NCBI GenBank assembly: GCA_903825465.1
Contig: CAIKAR010000067.1
Location: 1 to 51,114 of the forward strand
From: an uncultured Hyphomicrobiales bacterium
Lineage (GTDB): Bacteria; Pseudomonadota; Alphaproteobacteria; Rhizobiales; Beijerinckiaceae
Direction: 5' to 3'
Length of the DNA: 51,114 nt
Both the position numbers and the translations under genes were made by a program. Positions 22,784 to 41,384 of this stretch are shown here, one piece after another. Positions within the stretch are counted from its first letter, which is position 1; each line of letters opens with the position of its first letter. The notes beneath the pieces were generated by a model. The model was not told where the DNA came from and searched no databases. It was given only the letters and a program-made list of their open reading frames with translations.

Positions 22784-24034
22784 ATGCTCACGGCCGAACA
22801 AAACCGCGCGCTCACCGAAGTCGGTCCCGACAAGCCGATGGGCAAGCTGCTGCGGCGCTACTGGATTCCGTTTTGCGGCGCCAGCGAGCTGGAGAAAACG
22901 CCGGTCAAGGCGGTGCGGCTGTTGTGCGAGGATCTCGTCGTTTACCGCGACCTCGACGGCGCGTATGGCCTCGTCGACCGCCATTGCGCGCACCGCCGCG
23001 CCGACCTTTCCTACGGCTTTGTCGAGAAATGCGGCCTGCGCTGCAACTATCACGGCTGGCTGGTGAACCATCGCGGCGACGTGGTGGAGATTCCCTACGA
23101 CGACACCGCGCACCCCAAGCAGAACCTCAAGTCGCAGGCGAAGACGAAAGCCTACCCGGTGAAGGAATGCGCCGGCCTTTTGTTCGCCTACATGGGGCCG
23201 TCGCCGGCGCCGGAACTGCCGGTCTGGGCGCCGTTCACATGGCAAGGCGGCTTTCGCGAGATCGTGCGCTCGGACATTCCCTGCAACTGGTTTCAATGCC
23301 AGGAGAACTCCTGCGATCCCGTGCATTTCGAATGGATGCACGACAACTGGAGCCAGCGCCTCAACGACAGCTTCGAGTATTCGACGAAGCATTTGCAGCT
23401 CGCCTTCGACGAGGTGGAGTACGGCCACGCCTACCGCCGCGTCCGCGAGGGGCAGGAGGAGAATTCGCCGCTGTGGACCATCGGGCGCCTGGCGCTGTGG
23501 CCCATCGGATTTTATCTCGGCGAGCACTTCGAATGGCGCGTGCCGGTCGACGACGAGAACACGCTGTCGCTCGCGTGGTTCTATTCGCAGCCGCCGAAGG
23601 ACGCGAAGCCCTTCGAGCAGCCCAGCGTGCCGGTGTGGGAAAGCCCGATCACCGACGAGAACGGCCGCTGGGTGACGAGCCACGTCATCAACCAGGACAT
23701 CGTCGCCTGGGTCGGGCAGGGCCGGATCGCCGACCGCACGAAGGAATTCCTCGCGGCCAGCGACCGCGGCATCATGATGATGCGCAAGCGCTACTTCGAG
23801 GACATGAAGCGCATCGAAGAGGGCAAGGACCCCAAGGGCGTCATCCGCGATCCCGAGGTCGCCAAATGCGTGCCGCTGGCGTTGGTCGGCCGCGTGTCGG
23901 GCGCGGGCGAACTGACGATGGAGGAATGGAAAACGCATCCCTTCCTGAAGCTGCGCCTGCTCGACCACCGCCATTGCTACGGCCAGCCGAAGGACGTGCG
24001 CGCGGCGTTCCGCCAGGCCATGGGATTCGACTAA
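22784..24034 (+). CDS. Rieske ring-hydroxylating oxygenase (phthalate-oxygenase-like)
   Basis: 416 residues. Rieske ligands are C68-x-H70 and C87-x2-H90; the mononuclear iron ligands are D178, H181 and H186 in ENSCDPVHFEWMH. The LTEVGPDKPMGKLLRRYWIP start and the overall length are those of the phthalate 4,5-dioxygenase group of oxygenases, different from the shorter VanA-like protein at 4118. No reductase gene accompanies it. Substrate unknown, though binding-protein, UbiD and dihydroxyphthalate-decarboxylase-like genes elsewhere in the window point to aromatic acids. Start ATG 22784 follows AAGAGGAA. Confidence 0.9.
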   Translation: MLTAEQNRALTEVGPDKPMGKLLRRYWIPFCGASELEKTPVKAVRLLCEDLVVYRDLDGAYGLVDRHCAHRRADLSYGFVEKCGLRCNYHGWLVNHRGDVVEIPYDDTAHPKQNLKSQAKTKAYPVKECAGLLFAYMGPSPAPELPVWAPFTWQGGFREIVRSDIPCNWFQCQENSCDPVHFEWMHDNWSQRLNDSFEYSTKHLQLAFDEVEYGHAYRRVREGQEENSPLWTIGRLALWPIGFYLGEHFEWRVPVDDENTLSLAWFYSQPPKDAKPFEQPSVPVWESPITDENGRWVTSHVINQDIVAWVGQGRIADRTKEFLAASDRGIMMMRKRYFEDMKRIEEGKDPKGVIRDPEVAKCVPLALVGRVSGAGELTMEEWKTHPFLKLRLLDHRHCYGQPKDVRAAFRQAMGFD

Positions 24035-24053
24035 AGCGGGACGCTCCAGCGCG

Positions 24054-24647
24054 TCACGCCCGTCCTTGCATCCGCGCGCGCAATCCAAGTCCGAGCGTCA
24101 GCCAGCCCGAGCCGGCGAAGATCAGATCGACGCCGAGGATCGTGCCGAGCACGATCAGGCTGTCGCCGGGCCAGCCGACGAGGATCAACAAGCCGAACAA
24201 GGTCGTGACGACGCCCGACGCGACCGCCGCCCAGCGTGGCGCGCCCGCCGGCAAATGCGTTGAGAGGAACAGGCGGACCACGCCGCTCGCGATCAACCCG
24301 GCGCCGAGCATCAGCGTGAAGAACGCGGCGGCCATGCCGGGCTTGGAGATGGCGACGACCCCGGCGAGCGCGTAGATGACGCCCGACGCGATCCAGAGAA
24401 ACAGGCGGCCCCAGGTCCGCGCGCCAAAGCCGATGCCGATTTCGACGGCCCCGGCAAGGAACATGAAAAACCCGATGGTGAAGACCGAGACGAGCGTCGC
24501 CGCGCCCACCATGACGAGCGCCGCGACGCCGAACAGGCAGACCAGCGCGCCGAAGGCGGCGATGTAGAACCACCGCTGCTCAAGGCGGCGAATCCCGTCT
24601 TCGAGCGAACGCGGCGTGGGCGCGATGGGCGTCGGCGTGTTGGTCAT
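24054..24647 (-). CDS. HdeD-family membrane protein
   Basis: 197 residues with six membrane helices arranged as three repeated pairs, the HdeD (DUF308) layout; a cytoplasmic N-terminus with a proline/threonine-rich start is followed by LEDGIRRLEQRWFYIAA. HdeD is linked to acid resistance in enterobacteria; the role here is unproven. ATG 24647 is chosen over 24659 because GGAG sits six bases upstream. It lies 30 bases downstream of the Bug-type binding protein on the same strand, so the two may share a transcript. Confidence 0.85.
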   Translation of the reverse strand: MTNTPTPIAPTPRSLEDGIRRLEQRWFYIAAFGALVCLFGVAALVMVGAATLVSVFTIGFFMFLAGAVEIGIGFGARTWGRLFLWIASGVIYALAGVVAISKPGMAAAFFTLMLGAGLIASGVVRLFLSTHLPAGAPRWAAVASGVVTTLFGLLILVGWPGDSLIVLGTILGVDLIFAGSGWLTLGLGLRARMQGRA

Positions 24648-24677
24648 GGCTGGCTCCATTGGCGGACCGTCCGCGTT

Positions 24678-25682
24678 TTATTCTCCGGAAATCTTTCGCG
24701 CGGGGGCGACGATCTCGTCCGGCGTCGCGTAGATTTGTTTGACGACTTCAAGCGCCTCGTCGGCGTTTTTCGGCGCGACCGGTTGCCGGATGAGCGCCGC
24801 GTCGGCGAGAAATCCCGGATCGCGCATGGTCTCGTCGAAGGCGTTTCGAAGCATCGCGAGCCGGTCGGCGGGCACCGCGGCCGAGGCGATGAACGGCCGC
24901 CCCACCTGCCCGGACCCCGTCAGCAGCTTGATGATGTCGCGCGATGTCGCGTCGGGCGCGATGTCGGCCATCACCGGCACGCCGTCGGGCATGCCCAGCG
25001 CCGATATCGGCGCGGTCCGCACGAGCGGCGCGACCTTGTGGTTGTCGATCCAGTCCGGCGGCAGGCTGACCCAGGCGCCGCAATCGCCGTCGAGTTCGCC
25101 GCGCTCGATGGCGATGCGCTGCTCCGCGCTGCCGGGATAGCCGAGCACCTGCTTAATCTTCACGCCGAAGATGTTCTTGAGAATGCTCTGATTGACGAAC
25201 GCCGATGTGCCGGGGCCGACGTCGCCCATGTGGACCACGGGCATGGCGCGCGCCTGGTCGAGCGTTTTGACGCCGAGCGCGCCCCATGTGTAGCAGACGG
25301 TGACATCCTCGCTGACGCTGCCGAGCCAGGCGTATTTGCGGAAGTCGGCTTTCACCCGCTCGGGTAAAACGCGGGAATCGCCGATCAGCCCGAAATTGAA
25401 GGTCGCGATGAAGGTGCCGTCGCGCGGCGCGATGGTGTCGAGATATTGCACGCCGGTCAGGCTCGCCGCGCCGGGCATGTTGACGACGACGACATCGGGT
25501 TTGCCCGGAAGATGTTGTCCAAGATGGCGCGACACCAGCCGCGCCACGATGTCGAAGCCGCCACCGGACGAAAAGCCGACGACGATGCTGACGGTCTTGC
25601 CCTTGAAGGCCTCCTGCGCTGGCGCCTGTGTCGCGGCGATCGCCGCCAGCGGCGCCAAAACCATGCCGATCAACCGCCCCAT
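24678..25682 (-). CDS. Bug/TctC-type periplasmic solute-binding protein
   Basis: 334 residues, with a signal peptide ending AQA-PAQ (about residue 23). The family pattern is GKTVSIVVGFSSGGGFDIVARLVSRHLGQHLPG, followed by VNMPGAASLTGVQYL and APRDGTFIATFN. Such proteins deliver carboxylates to tripartite tricarboxylate (TctABC) transporters, but no TctA or TctB gene is in the window, so it is an orphan receptor here. ATG 25682 follows AGAGGA; the frame opens a little earlier with no ribosome site. Confidence 0.88.
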   Translation of the reverse strand: MGRLIGMVLAPLAAIAATQAPAQEAFKGKTVSIVVGFSSGGGFDIVARLVSRHLGQHLPGKPDVVVVNMPGAASLTGVQYLDTIAPRDGTFIATFNFGLIGDSRVLPERVKADFRKYAWLGSVSEDVTVCYTWGALGVKTLDQARAMPVVHMGDVGPGTSAFVNQSILKNIFGVKIKQVLGYPGSAEQRIAIERGELDGDCGAWVSLPPDWIDNHKVAPLVRTAPISALGMPDGVPVMADIAPDATSRDIIKLLTGSGQVGRPFIASAAVPADRLAMLRNAFDETMRDPGFLADAALIRQPVAPKNADEALEVVKQIYATPDEIVAPARKISGE

Positions 25683-25734
25683 TCGTCCTCTTCCCGCCAA
25701 TTTGAATTTGTCGTTGGCGCGATCCTACGCAATC

Positions 25735-31789: not shown

Positions 31790-32461
31790 CTACTCGGCGG
31801 CCTGCGCGGGGAGGAAATCGCCCCATCGCGACAAGGCCTCGCGGCCGGCGCCGGTGAGCGCGTAGGTGCCGCGCTCGACGCGGATGAACCAGCCATAGAC
31901 ATTGTCGCGCAGTATTTTCGCCGCGTCCGGCATCGTTGGCTTGAGATCGCGTGGCCGCGCCGGCGCCGTGGCCATCGCGGCCGCGCAGCCCAGGGCCTGT
32001 TGGCGGTAGGCGGTCATCACCGGCCGCTTGTTGCCGCCGCCCTCCGAGGGGTCGCCGCGCCGCCGCCGATGCTCGTCGACGATGCGCGAGCGGCGCTTGG
32101 CGTCCTTGCGCGGCTTCCACGGAACGGGCTCGACAAAGGCCTCGACGCGCCCCGAACTGAAGACGACGAGCAGGCCGAATCCCAGCAGCCGGCACAGTTT
32201 CTTGACGCGCGAATCGTTCTCGCGGCCACCGCCTTGCTTCGACGCGCGCACCGCGAGCCACACCTCGTCGCAGGCGGCGGCGCGATCGACGGCCTGCAAC
32301 ACCAGTTCCAGCGTGAAGCTGAGCTTCAATTCGCAAATGACGACCGCGACGGGGTCGCCTTTGTCCAGCGCGACGACGTCGCAGTCGCGCACTTCGCCCT
32401 TGACCTCGAAGCCGAGGCCTTCGAGGAAGCGCTTCACCGGCGCGTAAAGGGCGGTTTCCAA
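31790..32461 (-). CDS. DUF2161 protein, PD-(D/E)XK-type fold
   Basis: 223 residues. The N-terminal half has D28 and E44-x-K46 (VVICELKLSF), the PD-(D/E)XK arrangement of the DUF2161 putative phosphodiesterases; the C-terminus is winged-helix-like (DNVYGWFIRVERGTYALTGAGREAL). DNA or RNA cleavage is inferred from the fold only. Start TTG 32461 is chosen because the family begins with ET-[SA]-L-Y-x-P-V-K and GGAG lies five bases upstream; the frame is open to 32641 but overlaps the UbiD gene. It follows UbiD on the same strand after 80 bases, so membership of that operon is uncertain. Confidence 0.75.
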   Translation of the reverse strand: METALYAPVKRFLEGLGFEVKGEVRDCDVVALDKGDPVAVVICELKLSFTLELVLQAVDRAAACDEVWLAVRASKQGGGRENDSRVKKLCRLLGFGLLVVFSSGRVEAFVEPVPWKPRKDAKRRSRIVDEHRRRRGDPSEGGGNKRPVMTAYRQQALGCAAAMATAPARPRDLKPTMPDAAKILRDNVYGWFIRVERGTYALTGAGREALSRWGDFLPAQAAE

Positions 32462-32541
32462 GGGCGCTCCGCGAATCAGCCTCGCCTTGAGCGCTAACGC
32501 CGATTTCCGGGCAAGTCGAGCGCGCGGCCGCGTCCGCGGGA

Positions 32542-34014
32542 TCAGTCCTTCAGGAAACTCAGCTTGCCCGCCCATTTCGCCGCGATTTCGGCGGAATATT
32601 CCGGCGGCACGCGGTTCACTTGCGGGAAGCTGTCCTTCCACGCGAAGGGCCGCACGGCGTAGATGATGATGCGGCTATTGGCGAGCTCGTGGCGCGCGCG
32701 CCGCTCGGGCAGCAGCATGGGGTCGATGAGGCCGGTCCACATGCCGTCGATGATGTCGGTCGCCGTCTTCGGGTCCCAGCGCGTGCCGACCGCCCACATG
32801 ACTTCGGCGGCGTTGGTGATGTCGATGTCGTCGTCGACGACGATGACGATGCGGCCAAGGTAGGCCGACGAGCCGCAACCCGCGGCGACAAGCCCCGCCA
32901 TCTTCGCGTGGCCCTGGTGCATCTGTTCGATGGCGACGACGCTGATGAAGCGCGAGCCGCCGCCGGGCATGCGCCAGCAGCCCTTGACGCCGGGCACCCC
33001 GGCGGCTTCGAGATCGTCCCACAGCGAGGCCGCGCGCAGCAGCGCCGAGCCCGCCGTGCCGTAGTAGGTGCCGGGAAACGTCGGCCGCGCCGGCGGCGAC
33101 GCCGTCATGATGGGGTCGTCGCGGTGATAGATCGCCTTCACCCGCAGGATGGGTTCGGGCCCTGACGCCGCGTAATAGCCGGGCCATTCGCCGAACGGCC
33201 CCTCATGCATGGTGATTTCCTCGGGCGGCGGCATGAAGCCCTCGTAAACAAGCTCGCAATCGGCCGGGAAGGGCACGCCGGTGAGCTTGCCCGTCACCAG
33301 TTCGATCGCGCGGCCCAGGCGCCCGCCCGCCGCCGCGAATTCGGTGACGTTCTCGGCCATGGTCTGCGCCGCCACCGCGCCCAGCGCCGGCGCCTGGCCG
33401 ACGCTGACGACCATCGGGCAATGCTCTCCCTTGGCCCAGTATTTCTTGCGGATAATGTCCGCGTGCTTGCCGGGCTCGATGAAGACGCTGAGCGTGCGGC
33501 CGTCGCGCACGGAGACGCGGTAGGTGCCGGCGTTGACCCAGTCGCTGTCGGGGTCTTTCGTGATCACCATGCATTCCGTGCCGATGTACTGGCCGCCGTC
33601 GCCGGCGTTCCAGTGCGGCGCGGGAAATTTGAGGACATCGACCTCGTTGTCCATCAGCGTGTTTTGCATCACCGGTCCGGAGGCGACGTGAACGGGCGCG
33701 ATGGGCTCGGAACTCTTGCGGTTGCCTTTGCGGAAACTCCGCACAAGATCGAGGCCGACGCCCGCCGCGAAGACCTTCGACGCGCGCATGTTGACGACGA
33801 CGCGGTGGTTGTCGGGATAGCCTTTGATCTTGCGGAACAGCAGCACCGGCGGCGTCGGCTTGCGCAGGCTGAGTTCGTAGATCGCGCCCATTTCCAGATG
33901 TGGGTCGGCGCCTTCGATCACGTCGAGCTCGCCAATTTCCTCCGCGATCTCGATGGCCCTGCGGAGGTCGCCGAGGGCGGCGTGGCGGTTGGCTTCGGAA
34001 ACCTGCTTGGTCAT
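32542..34014 (-). CDS. UbiD-family prenyl-FMN-dependent decarboxylase
   Basis: 490 residues of the UbiD superfamily, which (de)carboxylates aromatic or unsaturated acids using prenylated FMN, Mn and K. Recognisable blocks are NTLMDNEVDVLKFPAPHWNAGDGGQYIGTE, GAVAAQTMAENVTEFAAAGG, HEGPFGEWPGYY (the E-x-P-F-G-E catalytic region) and VVDDDIDITNAAEVMWAVGTR. ATG 34014 follows GGACGCGGGACAAGAC; a longer frame upstream has no family match. It lies 16 bases after cupin 1, within the cupin/AAA operon. The prFMN synthase gene ubiX is not in the window. Substrate unknown. Confidence 0.93.
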   Translation of the reverse strand: MTKQVSEANRHAALGDLRRAIEIAEEIGELDVIEGADPHLEMGAIYELSLRKPTPPVLLFRKIKGYPDNHRVVVNMRASKVFAAGVGLDLVRSFRKGNRKSSEPIAPVHVASGPVMQNTLMDNEVDVLKFPAPHWNAGDGGQYIGTECMVITKDPDSDWVNAGTYRVSVRDGRTLSVFIEPGKHADIIRKKYWAKGEHCPMVVSVGQAPALGAVAAQTMAENVTEFAAAGGRLGRAIELVTGKLTGVPFPADCELVYEGFMPPPEEITMHEGPFGEWPGYYAASGPEPILRVKAIYHRDDPIMTASPPARPTFPGTYYGTAGSALLRAASLWDDLEAAGVPGVKGCWRMPGGGSRFISVVAIEQMHQGHAKMAGLVAAGCGSSAYLGRIVIVVDDDIDITNAAEVMWAVGTRWDPKTATDIIDGMWTGLIDPMLLPERRARHELANSRIIIYAVRPFAWKDSFPQVNRVPPEYSAEIAAKWAGKLSFLKD

Positions 34015-34030
34015 GTCTTGTCCCGCGTCC

Positions 34031-34546
34031 TCAACTGTCCTTGAAATCCGGCGACGTTTCCTTTTGCTCCAGGTCCGACGCGAGGAACTCCTGCATTGGC
34101 ACATGGATGAAGGCAGCCCAGACCGCGGGTTTCGCCGGGTCGAGGTTGAAATGCTGGTGCTCGACGCCGCCGGGCTTCAACGGCAGCAGGACGAGATCGC
34201 CCTTTTTCCAATCGACGCGCTCGCCATCGACGATGGAGTAGCCGGTTCCATCCACAACGTAGATGACAAGGCCGCCCTGATGCACATGACGGCCCGATTT
34301 GGTGCGGATTTCGTGGGTGAACACGCGCCACTGCTGCAAGGGCGTGTCCTTGAAGCTGACCGGATCGAGGAAGAAGCGCAGCTTGCCCTGCCGCGCCTGA
34401 AAATACGGGCGGTCGTCGGCGCGCAGCACGACGGGGCCGTTCTGGTTGCGCTCCTTCATGGCCTTGCGGTGACGCATGACGGATTCATAGGGGTTGTCGG
34501 CGATCGGCGGGCGTTCGCGCTCGCGCACGCGGTCCATCTCGGCCAT
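34031..34546 (-). CDS. Cupin protein 1, metal ligands present
   Basis: 171 residues with one cupin barrel. The putative metal ligands are intact: H87-x-H89 in SGRHVHQGG, with H130 and H132 in GGVEHQHFN, and H78 nearby. The N-terminal 70 residues are helical and charged (MRHRKAMKERNQ). The family resembles ring-cleavage or small-molecule-binding cupins found beside UbiD genes; reaction unknown. It starts three bases after the AAA ATPase stop and ends 16 bases before UbiD, so it is surely co-translated with both. It is a paralogue of cupin 2 at 36720, which has lost most of the histidines. Confidence 0.88.
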   Translation of the reverse strand: MAEMDRVRERERPPIADNPYESVMRHRKAMKERNQNGPVVLRADDRPYFQARQGKLRFFLDPVSFKDTPLQQWRVFTHEIRTKSGRHVHQGGLVIYVVDGTGYSIVDGERVDWKKGDLVLLPLKPGGVEHQHFNLDPAKPAVWAAFIHVPMQEFLASDLEQKETSPDFKDS

Positions 34547-34549
34547 GGC

Positions 34550-36718
34550 TTACACTCCCCTGATGTTGGCGCGCCACGCGCGCAACGCCTCGATCGCGTC
34601 GTCGCGCGTCGGCGCGGCGGCGCGGGTGAAGTTGGTCTTGCGAATGGCGATGCGCTTCGCCTCGTCGCAGAGGTGGCGGAGGTCGGCGCCCGACAGGCCC
34701 TCGGTGTCCGGCGCAAGCGCGGCGACAACCGCGTCGAGCCCGCCCGCCGCGTCGGCGGCTTTCGAGCGCAGGCACACACGCAGAATTTCCGCGCGCGTCG
34801 CTTCGTCGGGCAGGCCCACGGGGATGTGCAGGCCGAAGCGGCCCGGCCGCAGGATCGACGGGTCGATGAGGTCGACGCGGTTCGTCGCGCCGATGACGAC
34901 GACGCGCGACAATTGCTCGACGCCGTCCAGCTCGGCGAGCAACTGGCTCACCACGCGGTCGGCGGTGATCGAGCCGGCGTTCTGGCCGCGGATGGGCGCG
35001 ATGGCGTCGAGCTGGTCGAAGAAAATGACCGCCGGCGCCACCTGCCGCGCGATGCGGAACACCTGCCGCACGCCCTCCTCGGATTCGCCGAGCCATTTGG
35101 TGAACATCTCCGGCCCGTCCACCGAAATGAAATTGACGCCGCATTCGTTGGCGATGGCCTTGGCGAGCAGCGTCTTGCCGGTGCCCGAGGGCCCGTGCAG
35201 CAACATGCCGACATGCGGCGGCAGGCCGCTTTGCGTCAGCAGCGCCGGATTGCGCAGAGGCAGTTCCACCGTCTCTCGCAGGCGCTTTTTCACATCTTCG
35301 AGGCCGCCGATGTCGGACCACGACACATCGGGGACGCTGATGAGCGTCTCGCGCAGCGCGCTCGGCCGCGTTTCCGTCAGCGCCGTCTCGAAATCCTCCT
35401 TCTCGACGCGCAGATCCTCGACCGGGATGCGGAACGCGGCGCGGGGATCGGAAAGGTTGCCGGCGCTGCGGCGCAGCGCGCTGAGGCCCGCGTCGCGGCA
35501 AAGCTCCATCAGGTCGGCGCCGAGATAGCCGTGCGTGCGGCGCGCCGCCTCGTCGAGATATTTGAGCGCGTCGTCCGACAGCGGCATTTCGCGCGTTTGT
35601 ATGCCGAGTATCTCCCGGCGTCCCGGCGCGTCGGGCGGTCCGATGAAGATTTCGCGGTCGAAGCGGCCGGGCCGGCGGAACGCCGTGTCCACCGCGTCCA
35701 CACGGTTCGTCGTGCCGATAACGATGACCGAATCGACGCGCTTCAGGCCGTCCATCAGGGACAGCAATTGCGTCACCGTGCGGATGTCGGATTGCGCGCC
35801 GGTCTCGCCGCGCTTCGGCGCCATCGCGTCCAACTCGTCGATGAAGATGATGGACGGCGCGTGGTGGCTCGCCTCCGAGAACATGCGGCGCAGGTTCGCC
35901 TCGGTTTCGCCGGTGTAGGTGCCGATCACGTCCGGCCCGTTGATGTAGTAAAAACGCGCGTCGACCTCGTTGGCCACGGCGCGCGCGAGATGCGTTTTGC
36001 CCGAGCCCGGAGGCCCGTACAAAATGATGCCGCGCGGCGCGTTGATGCCGAGATGGCGGTAGACGTGCGGGAACTTCAGCGGCAGTTGCACCAGCTCGCG
36101 GATGAGCTTGATCTGGGCGCCGAGGCCGCCGACATCCTCGTAGGTGATGTCGAAGGCGCCGTCGGGAATATGCGAGTCGTGGTAGTGCAGGACGACTTCC
36201 GTTTCCTCGGTGACGAGGCCCGGCCCGTCGGGCGTCTTGTGCACTTCGTAGGTCGTGCCCGCGTGCGAATTCGGGAACGGAATGTAGAGCACCGCGCCCT
36301 GGCTGGCGGGCGTCCGGCTCGCCACCAGAACCGCTTTCAAATGCGGCGTCAGGTCGTGAGCCATCGACACGTCGACGGCGGGCAACAGCTCCAGCTTCTT
36401 CAGCGGCCGGAGCTTCGCCGGCTCGATCTCGACATCCTCGTTGAGATGCGCCTTCAGCGCCTGCCGGACGAAGCGGTCGAGGCGGATGATCTTGGCGCCG
36501 GTGTCCGCCGCGCTTGGCTCGCCCAGCCGCGCGACGATCGAGCGGCCGCGGTCGGTGGCGACGCGCACGAGGTCGCCGACGCCGACGCCCATGACGCGCA
36601 TCAGATCGGCGTCGAGCTTGATCGCCAGCTTCGCGCCCAGCGATTGCTCGTTGGCGAGGTGGTCGACGTGGGCGTGCGCGTGGCCGCCGTGGGAATGCGA
36701 ATGTCCGTGGTCGCTCAT
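34550..36718 (-). CDS. Cdc48/VAT-like double AAA+ ATPase with altered second Walker B
   Basis: 722 residues. A His-rich start (eight His in residues 4-20) precedes a Cdc48-N-like region (27-190) and two AAA modules. D1 has Walker A GPPGSGKT (235-242), Walker B IIFIDELD (D294, E295) and RRPGRFD. D2 has Walker A GPSGTGKT (509-516) but Walker B VIFFDQLD with Gln569 for the catalytic Glu; its RPGRFG keeps the arginine. Cdc48 unfolds or extracts protein partners. Here D1 should hydrolyse ATP while D2 may bind without turnover. It lies between two cupin genes, one base and three bases away, in an operon with UbiD, so a client among those enzymes is inferred. Confidence 0.92.
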   Translation of the reverse strand: MSDHGHSHSHGGHAHAHVDHLANEQSLGAKLAIKLDADLMRVMGVGVGDLVRVATDRGRSIVARLGEPSAADTGAKIIRLDRFVRQALKAHLNEDVEIEPAKLRPLKKLELLPAVDVSMAHDLTPHLKAVLVASRTPASQGAVLYIPFPNSHAGTTYEVHKTPDGPGLVTEETEVVLHYHDSHIPDGAFDITYEDVGGLGAQIKLIRELVQLPLKFPHVYRHLGINAPRGIILYGPPGSGKTHLARAVANEVDARFYYINGPDVIGTYTGETEANLRRMFSEASHHAPSIIFIDELDAMAPKRGETGAQSDIRTVTQLLSLMDGLKRVDSVIVIGTTNRVDAVDTAFRRPGRFDREIFIGPPDAPGRREILGIQTREMPLSDDALKYLDEAARRTHGYLGADLMELCRDAGLSALRRSAGNLSDPRAAFRIPVEDLRVEKEDFETALTETRPSALRETLISVPDVSWSDIGGLEDVKKRLRETVELPLRNPALLTQSGLPPHVGMLLHGPSGTGKTLLAKAIANECGVNFISVDGPEMFTKWLGESEEGVRQVFRIARQVAPAVIFFDQLDAIAPIRGQNAGSITADRVVSQLLAELDGVEQLSRVVVIGATNRVDLIDPSILRPGRFGLHIPVGLPDEATRAEILRVCLRSKAADAAGGLDAVVAALAPDTEGLSGADLRHLCDEAKRIAIRKTNFTRAAAPTRDDAIEALRAWRANIRGV

Positions 36719-36719
36719 C

Positions 36720-37229
36720 TTACTTGGTGAACTCCGGCGCGTTTTCCAGTTGCTCGTAGCCGCAGCCGCGGTCCACCGTCACGCACTCGAACCAGTTGGG
36801 CTCGGCGGCGACGAATTTCGCCGGCTTCGCCTTGTCGACGTTGAAATGCTGAACGATCACGCCGTCGGCGCGCAGCGGGATGTTGACGACATCGCCCGAT
36901 TTCCACGGGTGGCGCACGCCGTCGAGGATCGTGTAGCCCTCGCCCTCGACGATCATCATCACCTGCCCGCCCTGGAATTTGACGCGGCCCGTGCGGCTGC
37001 CCGGCGGTATCTCCTGCTCGAAGAAGATCATCGTTTGCAGCGCCGTGTCGCGGATCGAGGGGTGAAGATACCAGCGCATCAGCCCCTGTTGGTTGGTCTC
37101 CTGCGGCAGGTCCTCGTCGCGCACCACCTGAATGGCGCGCTTCGCCTCCTCGCGCTGGCGGTCGCGCAGCGCCAGCAACTCGCCGTAATGGTTTGTTTTG
37201 GCGAGTTTCGCTTTCCGGTCTTCCGACAA
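36720..37229 (-). CDS. Cupin protein 2, metal ligands mostly lost
   Basis: 169 residues, clearly paralogous to cupin 1: the same helical N-part (LLALRDRQREEAKRAIQVV), GEGYTILDGVRHPWKSGDVVNIPL and VQHFNVDKAKPAKFV. The metal-ligand motif reads GRVKFQGG (V83, F85) instead of GRHVHQGG, and V126 replaces the first His of the later pair; only H128 remains. It is therefore likely a structural or ligand-binding partner, not an enzyme. Start TTG 37229 is set by GGGAGGA five bases upstream. It ends one base before the AAA ATPase ATG. Confidence 0.85.
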   Translation of the reverse strand: MSEDRKAKLAKTNHYGELLALRDRQREEAKRAIQVVRDEDLPQETNQQGLMRWYLHPSIRDTALQTMIFFEQEIPPGSRTGRVKFQGGQVMMIVEGEGYTILDGVRHPWKSGDVVNIPLRADGVIVQHFNVDKAKPAKFVAAEPNWFECVTVDRGCGYEQLENAPEFTK

Positions 37230-37318
37230 GCCGTCCTCCCGTGTGTGCGCGCCCGCCAGGCGCGAAAAAAACGCATTATGGACATGGCGGCGGCGCGCGT
37301 CCACCGGCGGCGAAACGC

Positions 37319-38584
37319 CTATTTGCAGATCACGAATTCGGCGACGTCGTCGGCGCCGTAGCGCAGCGCGCAGGCCATGCCGGGCTGCAGCGCCTCCACC
37401 TTGCCCGGCGCGCCCGCGATCATGACGACGGATCTTTCCGGCGCGAGCTTGATGGCGCGCCTGCCGCCGTCCTTGTCCGCGATGTCGACCGACGACGGCC
37501 CCGACATCGCGACAACGCCCGAGAGCGATTTGAGGTCGGCGTTCTCGGTCACGCCGGACTCGAGCGCGGCGCGGGCGCGGGCGATGTGTTCCGGCTTCGC
37601 GCCCGTCATGCTCTTGACCAGCGCGTCGACCTCGGCCGCGGAACTTGGATTGATGGGCAGGCTGGCGCGCGCGGCGCCGTCGAGAAACTCCTTGTCCTTG
37701 ACGATGGCGTCGAAGGCCGCGCGCAGCGCCGCGACGCGGTCGGCGGGCACGCCCGGCGCGACCAGCAGCGTGCGCGCCATGATGTCGCGGTCGGTGACGA
37801 GGCGCATGACGCTTCGCTCGTCCTCGTCGCGGGCGAAGTCGAGGATGTGCGGCACGCCGGCCAGCGTCGGGTCGCGGCGCGCGGTCTGAATGATCGGCTT
37901 CAATTCGCCGGACTCGAAGTAGGTCTTGAACGCCGAGCGCAGCGAGCTGACCATGAAGGCGCAGGAGCCCTGCGCCTCGCCGTTCTGCATCGCGACGAGG
38001 ATGTCGCTGGTGCCGGGGTAGCCGTGAATGACGCGCGCGCGCGTGCCGTAGATCGCGTTGAAGGCGCGCGGATATTCGCTGGCGAGGCCGGACGGCGAGG
38101 TGGCCGCGAGCAGCGTCGGCGTGTTGAGCAGGTCGGCGAAGCTCGTCAGCCCCGAGCCCTTCCACGCCGAGCATGTGCCCGTCGCCTGGTCGAGGTTGCC
38201 GATCCATTGGAATTCGTTGGGCTCGAAAAGCGCGGCGGGGTTGCCGAACAGGCGCGTGAAAACCGCGGCGGCCTGCGGCATGCCGATCACGGTGCCGTCG
38301 CGCGGCGCGGTTTTGTAGACGTAGTTGGCCGACAAAAGCGACGACGCGCCCGGCATGCTGCGCACGATGATGGTCGGCGCGCCCGGCAGAAAACGCGGCA
38401 ACTCCCGCGCGAACAGCCGCGCGTAAGTGTCGGCGGCGCCGCCGGGCGGATCGCCAAGCACGATTGAGACGACCTTGCCTTTATAGAAGTCGCTCTGCGC
38501 CAAGGCCGCCGGCGCGGCGACGAGCCACGCGGCGAACCCTGCGCAAAGCCCCGCCAAAAAAACAACGCCGCGCTTGCGCGACAT
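37319..38584 (-). CDS. Bug/TctC-type solute-binding protein with C-terminal extension
   Basis: 421 residues, about 90 longer than usual. The signal peptide ends near ALAQ (residue 31). The Bug core (SDFYKGKVVSIVLGDPPGGAADTYARLFARELPRFLPG, VRSMPGASSLLSANYVY, APRDGTVIGMPQ) ends near residue 350; then comes a ~65-residue tail with strand-like pattern, RRAIKLAPERSVVMIAG and GMACALRYGADDVAEFVICK. The tail is not part of typical Bug proteins. ATG 38584 follows GGGAGGA. It is first in the cupin/AAA/UbiD operon, 89 bases before cupin 2, and probably senses or binds the pathway substrate; no TctA/B is nearby. Confidence 0.87.
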   Translation of the reverse strand: MSRKRGVVFLAGLCAGFAAWLVAAPAALAQSDFYKGKVVSIVLGDPPGGAADTYARLFARELPRFLPGAPTIIVRSMPGASSLLSANYVYKTAPRDGTVIGMPQAAAVFTRLFGNPAALFEPNEFQWIGNLDQATGTCSAWKGSGLTSFADLLNTPTLLAATSPSGLASEYPRAFNAIYGTRARVIHGYPGTSDILVAMQNGEAQGSCAFMVSSLRSAFKTYFESGELKPIIQTARRDPTLAGVPHILDFARDEDERSVMRLVTDRDIMARTLLVAPGVPADRVAALRAAFDAIVKDKEFLDGAARASLPINPSSAAEVDALVKSMTGAKPEHIARARAALESGVTENADLKSLSGVVAMSGPSSVDIADKDGGRRAIKLAPERSVVMIAGAPGKVEALQPGMACALRYGADDVAEFVICK

Positions 38585-38772: not shown

Positions 38773-39120
38773 GTGCAAACGGTCGTTGAAACCCCCGCTT
38801 ATCTCTCCGCGGCCAAGGACGCCGGCGTCACGGAAATCGAACGGTCGCAAATCGTCGAATTTCTCGCCGCCAATCCGCTGGCGGGGGATGTGATGGAAGG
38901 CGCGGGCGGCGCGCGCAAGTTCCGCTTCGCAGGTCGCGGCAAGGGCAAAAGCGGCGGCTACCGGGTGATTAGCTACTACGCCAACGAATCGTTTCCGGTT
39001 TTTTTGTTGGACATTTTCGGCAAGGACGAGAAGGCCAATTTATCGAAGGCCGAACGGAACGAGCTTAACGCCATCCTGACGACAATCGCCGACCTCTACA
39101 GGAAAAGGAGACCAAAATGA
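38773..39120 (+). CDS. HigB/RelE-family toxin
   Basis: 115 residues of the RelE/ParE superfamily, HigB branch: the first strand [39 protein letters not shown], and [23 protein letters not shown]. Toxins of this kind cut mRNA on the ribosome. Toxin-before-antitoxin order and the four-base overlap (ATGA at 39117-39120) match higBA. The GTG start at 38773 lies only six bases after the -10 box, so the mRNA is probably leaderless and no Shine-Dalgarno is present. Confidence 0.88.
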
Positions 39121-39416
39121 GCAAGGCGGGCAAGCGCATTCTTCAGGGCGCGAGGGAAGCCCTGGCCTTTGTGAACGACGCGGCCGATCTCGACGCCTAT
39201 GTTGTTCACGTTCCCAAAAAAATGGACCTGCGCGCGCTGCGCAAGGCCCGCAATATGACCCAGGAGGCGTTCGCGATCCGGTATGGTTTCAACGTCGCGC
39301 GTCTGCGTGATTGGGAACAGGGCCGCTCGCAACCCGACGGGGCGGCGCGCGCTTATCTCAAGCTCATCGAGCGGGAGCCCGAGGTCGTCGAGCGCGTCCT
39401 CGCGGACGCTTCCTAG
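39117..39416 (+). CDS. HTH antitoxin of the HigA/NadS type
   Basis: 99 residues. A helix-turn-helix of the Xre class covers about residues 35-75 ([36 protein letters not shown]), followed by a short helix [15 protein letters not shown]. It should neutralise the preceding toxin and repress the operon through the palindrome at 38745-38759. Its ATG overlaps the toxin stop, with AAAAGGAGACC as ribosome site inside the toxin gene. Confidence 0.9.
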
Positions 39417-39565
39417 ACGGCGAAATGGCGGATCAGGCGCCGCGGCATCCCGACATTGAGCCCGCGCCGCCGCGTGAATTGCCCGCCCATTTCCGACTTG
39501 GGAAGGCCGCGCCGAGACCGTCAAGAAGGCAGCGGTTATGCGGTGGGGGAATCGCGACTAAACGG

Positions 39566-39593
39566 TTGACTTCCGATTTTCAATCAATATATT
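39566..39593 (+). promoter_or_regulatory. Promoter of the HTH-ImmA/IrrE module
   Basis: TTGACT (39566-39571) and TATATT (39588-39593) are 16 bases apart, and the -10 box forms the centre of the 42-bp palindrome. Transcription would begin near 39600, leaving a 20-base leader with GAAGTGAGG before ATG 39621. Confidence 0.7.
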
Positions 39594-39610
39594 GATTGAA
39601 AATCGGAAGT
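39569..39610. promoter_or_regulatory. Perfect 42-bp palindrome overlapping the promoter (probable operator)
   Basis: Every base from 39569 (ACTTCCGATTTT...) to 39610 (...AAAATCGGAAGT) is matched by its complement around the centre AATATATT. It covers the -10 region and ends eleven bases before the first codon. A symmetric operator for the module's own HTH protein is the simplest reading; a cruciform or transcription stop for the upstream toxin-antitoxin operon is also possible. Confidence 0.85.
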
Positions 39611-39620
39611 GAGGCTGTCG

Positions 39621-40292
39621 ATGGCCAGCAAAATTTACGAAACTCCGGCCGCTGCCGCCCGCCGGCTCATGGAACTCGGCGTATCGATGGAAGCTCTTCA
39701 GCGTGCCATAGCTGACGGTCACGCGAGGCGAATAGCATCCTCGCCCAACGATGCCCCTCACATGCCGGGCACATATGCATGGGCGCAGACCCTTTGCACC
39801 CTCCGGGACGAGCTGCTTCCTTTGGGTTGGCGAAAGGCTGACCCCGGAAATTTCTCACTGACCATAAACGATGCCCGCAAGATCAACGTCGTTGTGGAGA
39901 GCGGTGATCGGTTTACACGGAAAGCTCATGCAGAGCCAAGAACGAAGGGATTGAAAGGGCTTTATATCGAAGCCGTCGCCCTTCGGAACAGGCTTGAAAT
40001 GGATATGTTTCCTGAAACCGTCGCGGACGCTTTGCGGCGCGTTGCAGCACTTCTTGAATATCAAACCTACATTCTTCTTGAATATCAAACCTACATTCTT
40101 CTCATTCACATCAAAGACGACTCCTACGTGGCGGAACTTTCTCTGCCTGATATCGTCGAGGACAATCAAATTGTCAGTTGGAAAGAACGCATTTTCATAC
40201 CCGATCCCGAAGCCCCCTTCGCTGATCGCAAGCCCCTTCCATCACGCGACGACGGCGATGAGATCGATGTTCCCGTGAGGCGGAAAGCGTGA
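39621..40292 (+). CDS. Unknown protein paired with HTH-ImmA/IrrE peptidase
   Basis: 223 residues, not recognised. The N-terminus (MASKIYETPAAAARRLMEL, SMEALQRAI) is helical; a central part TYAWAQTLCTLRDELLPLGWRK and SLTINDARKINVVVESGD is mixed alpha/beta; the C-terminus is charged and probably disordered. Residues 144-151 (LLEYQTYI) are exactly repeated as 152-159, from a 24-base tandem duplication. No signal peptide or membrane helix. Codon use is more AT-rich than neighbouring core genes. It is three bases upstream of the HTH-ImmA/IrrE gene and shares its promoter. A toxin, effector or sensor substrate for the peptidase is a possible role. ATG 39621 is preceded by GAAGTGAGG; GTG 39609 is possible. 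Confidence 0.8.
   Translation: MASKIYETPAAAARRLMELGVSMEALQRAIADGHARRIASSPNDAPHMPGTYAWAQTLCTLRDELLPLGWRKADPGNFSLTINDARKINVVVESGDRFTRKAHAEPRTKGLKGLYIEAVALRNRLEMDMFPETVADALRRVAALLEYQTYILLEYQTYILLIHIKDDSYVAELSLPDIVEDNQIVSWKERIFIPDPEAPFADRKPLPSRDDGDEIDVPVRRKA
40050..40097 (+). repeat. In-frame 24-bp exact tandem duplication
   Basis: Bases 40050-40073 are repeated exactly at 40074-40097 (unit begins CTTCTTGAATATC). It adds eight residues to the encoded protein without shifting the frame and looks recent, since both copies are identical at every base. Confidence 0.95.
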
Positions 40293-40295
40293 TCC

Positions 40296-41384
40296 ATGCT
40301 GAATCCTTCGAGACTTACTGTCGCCCGTCAACGGGCGGGGCTGACCAAGAAGGAATTGGCTAATCGCATAGGCGTTGATCCACGCGCAGTTTCTGGTTTT
40401 GAGGCGGGACAGTACGAGCCTACAGGCGAGAACCTGCGTCGCCTTGCGCGCGCTACTGGATTTCCTGCAGAATTCTTGGAAGCGGATGACATTGAAATCT
40501 TGTCGACCAATGGCGTCAGCTTTCGGTCAATGACTAAGATGACCGCCAAACAGCGGGACGCAGCGATTGCTGCCGGATCGATTGCTTTTGTTCTGAGTGA
40601 TTGGGTTGACCGAGAATTTGATCTCCCTGATGTTGACATACCGGACTATTCGAACGTCGATCCGGAGATAGCCGCTGAGTCTTTACGCATGCATTGGCGC
40701 CTCGGCGTTCAGCCCATCAAGAACATGTTGCACTTGCTAGAGTTGCGCGGGGTCCGTGTTTTTTCGTTGGCGGAAAACTCCAACGAAGTTGATGCTTATT
40801 CAGTTTGGCGCGGGCGTCGTCCTTTTGTGTTCCTGAATACAGGGAAGTCCGGTGAGCGGCGTCGGTTTGATGCTGCGCATGAACTGGCGCATTTGGTGTT
40901 GCATCGTCGTGCTGCGCAAAGTGGGTCCGATGCTGAGAAAGAAGCGCATGCGTTTGCTTCTGCGTTTTTAATGCCAAAATCGAGCATCAAAGCGATAGGT
41001 CGCGTTGTCCCAAATTTCAATTTTATAATTCAGCAGAAACAAATTTGGTCTGTTTCTGCAAGCGCAATGACAATGAGGCTTCATTCGCTCGGCATGCTTA
41101 CTTACTATCACTATAATCGGTTGTTTGTTGAGCTTTCAAGGCGAGGGTTTCGCTCAGGAGAGCCCGGCGGGATGAAGCCGGAAACTTCTCAGGTATGGCG
41201 AAAGGTATTTGCCGCCGTTCGGAGCGAAGGACTTGGTGTGCAAGGGCTTGCTGACAAGCTGCTATTACCCGCTGAGGAAATTGTGAAGCTCGTTTTTGGG
41301 CTGGTAAAAATTGGCCTTCCATCGGGGGAAGCTAGGTTAAATGCGACTCCTTCTCGGGGCGATTATTTGACTGTCATTAAATAG
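40296..41384 (+). CDS. HTH-Xre / ImmA-IrrE family metallopeptidase
   Basis: 362 residues. An Xre helix-turn-helix occupies about residues 5-60 (LTKKELANRIGVDPRAVSGFEAGQYEPTGENL), and an ImmA/IrrE (COG2856, DUF955) domain follows with zinc-peptidase motif H195-E-L-A-H199 and a third ligand probably E216 in EKEAHAFASAFLMP. Family members cleave phage or stress repressors (ImmA, IrrE). The HTH plausibly binds the 42-bp palindrome upstream and the peptidase would act on a repressor or on the partner protein. Lower-GC codons than the surrounding core genes suggest acquisition. ATG 40296 follows the partner's stop by three bases. Confidence 0.88.
   Translation: MLNPSRLTVARQRAGLTKKELANRIGVDPRAVSGFEAGQYEPTGENLRRLARATGFPAEFLEADDIEILSTNGVSFRSMTKMTAKQRDAAIAAGSIAFVLSDWVDREFDLPDVDIPDYSNVDPEIAAESLRMHWRLGVQPIKNMLHLLELRGVRVFSLAENSNEVDAYSVWRGRRPFVFLNTGKSGERRRFDAAHELAHLVLHRRAAQSGSDAEKEAHAFASAFLMPKSSIKAIGRVVPNFNFIIQQKQIWSVSASAMTMRLHSLGMLTYYHYNRLFVELSRRGFRSGEPGGMKPETSQVWRKVFAAVRSEGLGVQGLADKLLLPAEEIVKLVFGLVKIGLPSGEARLNATPSRGDYLTVIK

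Follow-up and report, generated by a model that had tools for sequence, protein, structure and literature searches.

A Cdc48-class double AAA ATPase linked to paired small cupins in Hyphomicrobiales genomes: a candidate remodelling chaperone for a predicted ring-cleaving enzyme

The usual view of mononuclear iron dioxygenases is that they acquire their iron unaided. In the nitric oxide reductase system, an AAA+ machine, NorQD, can drive the insertion of non-haem iron, and a remodelling model has been put forward for its action (PMC13036017); its ATPase, NorQ, is of the MoxR class and is paired with a VWA protein, NorD. The theme of the present analysis is a locus that, like NorQD, encodes an AAA+ protein beside its (here proposed) client but, unlike it, joins a double-ring ATPase of the Cdc48 class (hereafter AAA) to a soluble pair of small cupins (cup1 and cup2). 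It lies in a contig of 51,114 nucleotides from an uncultured Hyphomicrobiales bacterium of the Beijerinckiaceae (GenBank assembly GCA_903825465.1, contig CAIKAR010000067.1, positions 1 to 51,114 of the forward strand), the whole of which is referred to below as the window. No description of the system was found in the open-licence literature searched.

Described proteins offer points of comparison for both partners. Cpa of actinobacteria, a bacterial Cdc48-like double AAA protein, has the sensor asparagine and arginine finger only in its second AAA domain (D2) and interacts with the proteasome, and its double mutant E566Q + D312N binds nucleotide without hydrolysing it (PMC6017811). Among cupin enzymes, hydroquinone 1,2-dioxygenase is built of two different cupin subunits, one alone of which has a metal site, of the 2-His-1-Glu kind, while 5-nitrosalicylate 1,2-dioxygenase (5NSDO) is a ring-cleaving enzyme with a single cupin and three histidines; N-terminal regions stabilise the tetramer of 5NSDO and, in salicylate dioxygenase (SDO), reach the active site of the neighbouring subunit (PMC10306065). 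In the locus described here, the informative unit is AAA together with the cupin pair, not AAA together with the UbiD-family decarboxylase encoded alongside them, and a partnership between AAA and the cupins is likely.

Linkage, co-occurrence and distribution of the ATPase and the cupins

Six genes follow one another on the minus strand of the window, encoding a distant TctC/Bug-like substrate-binding protein, cup2, AAA, cup1, UbiD and a DUF2161 protein, with intergenic gaps that, when recomputed, came to 89, 1, 3, 16 and 80 bases, exactly as in the original prediction, made from the sequence of the window, which had suggested that the ATPase acts on the cupin and UbiD enzymes. AAA genes of the same clade could be read at 14 loci in 13 genomes (the window, L006, L171, L007-L010, L164, L012, L121-L123, L013+L016 and L125+L169, the last two being genes cut by contig ends and each counted from two pieces), and at all 14 both cup1 and cup2 adjoin AAA (at L121 the contig ends within cup1), an arrangement that exceeds chance. 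Three gene orders occur among these loci, cup2-AAA-cup1, AAA-binding protein-cup2-cup1 and cup1-cup2-cup1-AAA, and thus the association survives rearrangement. The outcome that would have told against the original prediction, homologues of the ATPase found mostly without cupin neighbours, was not seen for this clade. Among more distant Cdc48s, no match resembling cup1 or cup2 was found at any of 30 loci searched (26 bacterial and four archaeal, 22 of them with about 1.5 kb of flank); four such loci were also read as annotated, 8 kb to each side, and the cupin-domain gene that lies about 4 kb upstream in one of them, from Microvirga (L087), is unrelated, matching neither cup1 nor cup2.

Co-occurrence within the window's genus points the same way. 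AAA is present in nine of its 51 genomes and a strong cup1 match (E <=1e-30, a limit set after the match list had been viewed) in the identical nine; matches just under that limit (1.3e-26 to 9e-18) fall in the same nine genomes and are mainly cup2 genes, and one further genome (G333) has a cupin match of 38% identity and no AAA. Were the genomes independent, which is not the case, identical sets of nine would arise with a chance of 3.3e-10. The cupins outnumber the ATPase: across the nine genomes, 25 strong cup1 genes stand against 10 AAA genes, cup1 (two to six copies) exceeding AAA (one or two) in six of them, and in the window's own genome a second cupin pair (G000:C96:4346-5385) follows a binding-protein gene, the 16 kb read there containing no AAA. 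Four more genomes, picked for holding AAA, each contain a single AAA gene; two cupin pairs occur in one of the four. Since cup1 copies exceed AAA genes and a second pair stands without AAA nearby, AAA would act in trans on several cupin pairs. Elsewhere, a cup2/cup1 pair lies beside ubiE/COQ5- and ABC1/UbiB-like genes, with neither AAA nor UbiD within 3 kb (L168:2777-6235, where the families were scanned, and L167, assigned by clustering).

The system is rare and narrow in distribution and occurs almost only in metagenome-assembled genomes (MAGs). A scan of one genome per species, made with short exact patterns and covering the best 80 of 199 matches, gave at least 11 loci 68-92% identical to AAA, after which identity drops to 46%; all of these are in MAGs, labelled Rhizobiales, Hyphomicrobiales, Xanthobacteraceae, Bradyrhizobiaceae or Beijerinckiaceae. 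Exact patterns miss relatives, and AAA members at 61-62% surfaced only in a family-wide search, in which AAA was matched at E <=1e-100 in 60 of 397 genomes, eight of them from the window's genus at 852 bits or more and the other 52 at 531 bits or less. Outside the window's own genome, AAA was not found at E 1e-162 among 385 genomes of the class and 398 of the phylum, nor cup1 among 397 genomes of the order (E 1e-20) and 299 of the phylum (E 1e-15), samples that overlap in part. A viral origin was discarded, as neither of the two stretches in viral contigs that matched the cup1 pattern is a relative, and in a plasmid collection AAA was matched in 2055 records, never at 60% identity or more, and cup2 and cup1 weakly in one record and three records respectively. 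Gene boundaries in the relatives come from a simple caller and are rough.

Properties of the ATPase and of the cupin pair

AAA (34550..36718, minus strand; 722 aa) has, like Cdc48/p97 and the archaeal VCP-like ATPase, an N domain and two AAA domains (two PF00004 stretches), which is the CDC48 layout, and its best solved matches are the archaeal VCP-like ATPase 5g4f by sequence and p97 by fold, the latter from a structure model (mean predicted local distance difference test score, pLDDT, 73; predicted template modelling score, pTM, 0.41) taken for fold class alone. By sequence and by fold it groups with Cdc48/p97 and does not belong to the MoxR class with its VWA partner. Unlike Cdc48/p97, it stays under the curated cut-off of TIGR01243 (CDC48) when taken as a whole protein (705.1 against 802.65 bits), and its CDC48_N match, despite an E-value of 1.4e-7, reaches 32.1 of the 35.1 bits of the cut-off.

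Two clade-wide changes further set it apart from Cdc48/p97. Pore loops are present, and in the first AAA domain (D1) the Walker A, Walker B (DE), sensor and arginine-finger residues are as in other Cdc48s. In D2 the Walker B glutamate is replaced by glutamine in all 14 clade rows that reach the position (two of the 16 rows aligned stop short of it), while all 27 rows from other Cdc48s keep it, so that the catalytic glutamate is found in one ring of the two (D1 DE, D2 DQ). AAA thereby also differs from Cpa: D1 here looks complete, and the E-to-Q change in D2 is natural, not engineered as in Cpa (E566Q, in the double mutant). The second change is a histidine-rich N-terminus, with six to eight histidines among the 25 residues leading up to a conserved DHL in every clade row reaching this part (14/14) and at most three in any 25-residue span within the first 150 residues of 30 other Cdc48s (0/30). 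Histidine-rich arms are known from nickel chaperones, for example HypB. In a tree, 12 full clade sequences group at 100/100 support, on a long stem and apart from 30 others, with a warning from the tool that long branches meet, which leaves the sister group of the clade unsure. An ordinary Cdc48 as the identity of AAA was rejected on this separate branch together with the motif differences (D2 Walker B, His-rich N-terminus). Other Cdc48-family members noted in passing include a different ATPase on Methylocella tundrae plasmid p1 (L086), which ends a gas-vesicle gene cluster two genes past an Hsp20 gene, and a Cdc48 on a Halobacterium plasmid (L196) directly preceded by an Hsp20 gene.

The two cupins are paralogues, 38.6% identical, and both are present as originally predicted, but the complete metal motif is found in cup1 alone. 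In cup1 (34031..34546, minus strand; 171 aa; Cupin_2 E 2e-10), the metal-site histidines H87, H89 and H130/H132 are invariant in 27 of 27 aligned sequences, giving a three-His site; cup2 (36720..37229, minus strand; 169 aa, TTG start; Cupin_2 E 0.001, under the cut-off) has histidine at neither HxH position in any of 25 rows, a later histidine being kept, and is the probable non-metal partner of cup1 (a row of L125 at 6479, 28% identical to cup2, was left out as a different cupin). Gentisate 1,2-dioxygenase 3bu7 is the best solved protein in profile searches for both cup1 (E 1.1e-19) and cup2 (E 1.5e-9). The gentisate and aminosalicylate dioxygenase models are matched by 27 and 27 of the 27 cup1 members and by 24 and 25 of the 25 cup2 members, all far under the cut-offs; for TIGR02272 (gentisate 1,2-dioxygenase), cup1 scores 26 bits and cup2 23.6 bits, well short of 442.1. 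When the cup1 model (mean pLDDT 81) was compared by fold, many cupins came back, 3bu7 ranking third, and no single function stood out.

A cupin pair with one metal motif is the pattern of hydroquinone-dioxygenase-like heteromers, as far as motifs alone are compared, with three histidines here where hydroquinone 1,2-dioxygenase has a 2-His-1-Glu site. The subunits of that enzyme are of unequal size; cup1 and cup2 are nearly equal. The barrel, the three-His site and the predicted place in aromatic-acid catabolism are shared with gentisate 1,2-dioxygenase (3bu7) and 5NSDO, which, unlike the pair described here, consist of one type of chain. From these sequence comparisons we infer that cup1 and cup2 form a heteromeric gentisate-dioxygenase-like enzyme of aromatic-acid catabolism, with a single metal site in cup1. 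Some loci carry one cup2 gene with two cup1 genes (L158:8070-9584 and L012:331-2035), the cup1 copies of L158 being in tandem and closely similar.

The N-terminal tail of cup1 is its best conserved stretch, with a mean top-residue fraction of 0.84 over residues 1-14, compared with 0.64 (15-60), 0.76 (61-150) and 0.69 (151 onwards) elsewhere, and is modelled with low confidence (pLDDT below 50 at residues 1-7 and 11-13). Synonymous codon differences are 0.52 in the tail and 0.43-0.45 in the rest of the gene; synonymous codons thus vary there at least as much as elsewhere, and it is the protein sequence, not the choice of codons, that is constrained. The tail is common to the cup1 of pairs otherwise diverged in sequence, and, compared by eye, is not shared by cup2 or nine neighbouring bicupins. 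Judged by this pattern of conservation, it could be a handle for AAA.

A proposed role for the ATPase and its alternatives

We give a probability of about 0.5 to AAA being a dedicated remodelling chaperone, an activase or assembly factor, for the cup1/cup2 enzyme, acting in trans on all pairs of the cell. In the mechanism envisaged, an AAA hexamer would grip the conserved cup1 tail; D1 would power the machine by hydrolysing ATP, while D2, whose Walker B carries the natural E-to-Q change, would stay ATP-bound and hold the ring together; the movement would open or assemble the cup1/cup2 barrel, allowing entry of Fe(II); the His-rich N-terminus would act as metal donor or buffer; and UbiD, the binding proteins, Rieske proteins and hydroxylases would be pathway-specific cargo. 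The most elaborate version, a Cdc48-class general iron-loading activase for split two-subunit cupin dioxygenases, threading the cup1 tail with D1 as motor, D2 as ATP clamp and the His-rich arm as metal carrier, is put forward tentatively, as a clearly less probable reading; iron loading is the most appealing form of the proposal, and it rests on that arm and on the NorQD analogy. The evidence as a whole favours a Cdc48-class machine that evolved to serve heteromeric cupin enzymes, much as NorQD serves nitric oxide reductase. Metallation of the cupins, part of the original prediction, gains indirect backing from two features, the three-His site in cup1 and the N-terminus of AAA with its many histidines; the UbiD half of that prediction is not supported as a task of AAA. 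If true, these proposals would tie a Cdc48-type machine to one enzyme family, a new job for Cdc48; open a second way, next to MoxR/NorQ, for an AAA protein to drive metal insertion; provide a natural double-ring AAA protein whose second ring bears the E-to-Q change used in laboratories to block hydrolysis; and could explain failed expression of such enzymes in ordinary hosts.

Several points weigh against a remodelling chaperone of this kind. Histidine-rich stretches are no proof of metal delivery, and the neighbour proteins scanned at cupin/AAA loci, part of all the neighbouring genes, include no VWA family member of the sort that partners NorQ. 5NSDO was made in Escherichia coli and crystallised with its iron, and no helper ATPase is mentioned in the excerpted account (PMC10306065). 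AAA is absent from the vicinity of 14 of the 30 listed cupin loci, some of which stop at contig ends, and the genomes concerned are related and almost all MAGs, so their sharing of these genes cannot be counted as independent events.

The cup1 tail, moreover, may instead help to build the tetramer or contribute to the active site of an adjacent subunit, the uses to which related dioxygenases put their N-terminal regions. That the tail is such an oligomerisation or active-site element, with AAA contacting cup2 or another part, is possible, though we lean against it, and would be compatible with the other readings; the precedents of 5NSDO and SDO speak for it (PMC10306065), but the regions concerned are mostly helical there, whereas residues 1-13 of cup1 are mostly of very low model confidence, and the tail is held in common by pairs whose sequences have otherwise diverged.

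Somewhat more doubtful is that AAA solely assembles or disassembles the cup1/cup2 heteromer in quality control, metal entering unaided and the His-rich arm being incidental or meant for another partner. Cdc48 machines are established segregators of complexes, the pore loops and D1 motifs needed are present, and the linkage data fit equally well; a His-rich motif kept in every one of 14 clade N-termini, and in none of 30 others, nevertheless asks for a role.

It is improbable that AAA is merely a Cdc48 captured in a catabolic cassette and hitch-hiking with the cupins. The genomes that carry it are related and the make-up of the cassette varies, and the similarity ranks of AAA and the cupins agree (rho 0.77 and 0.74; 55 pairs from 11 loci), as shared descent alone would give, for which reason that agreement was set aside as proof of coupling. 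Hitch-hiking sits poorly with the clade-wide motif changes and the separate branch at 100/100, with an association kept across three gene orders, and with the finding that, within the genus searched, extra cup1 copies occur only in AAA-bearing genomes.

UbiD and other neighbouring genes

UbiD (32542..34014, minus strand; 490 aa) matches the family's Pfam domains PF01977 (E 2e-50), PF20696 and PF20695 above their cut-offs and no NCBIfam cut-off, its nearest solved sequence being the UbiD family decarboxylase 7pda. It is encoded no more than 3 kb from the cupins at five of the 14 AAA loci and at two of 14 cupin loci without AAA; L010 and L012 have it further away than 3 kb. It was rejected as the main client of AAA on the first of these counts, and looks like one of several optional pathway genes, or pathway cargo. 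That AAA would serve the whole catabolic module, for instance by activating UbiD, the wider reading of the original prediction, is very improbable, for although UbiD accompanies those five AAA genes and the window's genome has one UbiX, in principle able to supply its cofactor, nine AAA genes have no UbiD within 3 kb, all 14 have both cupins, and UbiDs are known generally to need UbiX, not an AAA.

The binding protein (37319..38584, minus strand; 421 aa), predicted to be of Bug type, could be confirmed only as a distant relative: TctC structures are reached at E 3.6e-4, a terephthalate-binding protein is among its weak matches, and no Pfam family is found at E 0.01. Proteins of the same cluster are encoded near many cupin loci, including nine of the 14 AAA loci within 3 kb, and a full-length gentisate-dioxygenase-like bicupin at seven of the 14; beside such a complete bicupin dioxygenase, cup1/cup2 may catalyse a different step. 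Also encoded nearby are a small Rieske ferredoxin, an amidohydrolase, LigXa-type Rieske oxygenases, flavin adenine dinucleotide (FAD) aromatic hydroxylases and, in one branch, hydantoinase and ABC transporter proteins. A trio of gentisate-like bicupin, 102-aa Rieske ferredoxin and Amidohydro_2 protein stands upstream of cup2-AAA at L006:5713-8317, L007:1194-3810 and L016:2916-5524, and in L012 members of the same clusters come after AAA (families scanned in L006, the other loci assigned by clustering). The DUF2161 protein (31790..32461, minus strand; DUF2161 E 4e-34) was dropped as a part of the system: among 30 loci searched by blastp it is seen in the window alone, and so it probably does not belong to the system.

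Another distant binding-protein-like gene, 32% identical to that of the operon, lies elsewhere in the window (22784-25700) with genes for a LigXa-type Rieske oxygenase and a DUF308 protein, and the Rieske and binding-protein clusters of this region recur at cupin loci. Just upstream of the operon, on the opposite strand, is a RelE-like gene, with a helix-turn-helix (HTH)/IrrE-type peptidase gene further on; these genes, at 38773-41384, are possibly toxin-antitoxin genes or an island edge, and close to them, at 40-42 kb, G+C falls to 0.54.

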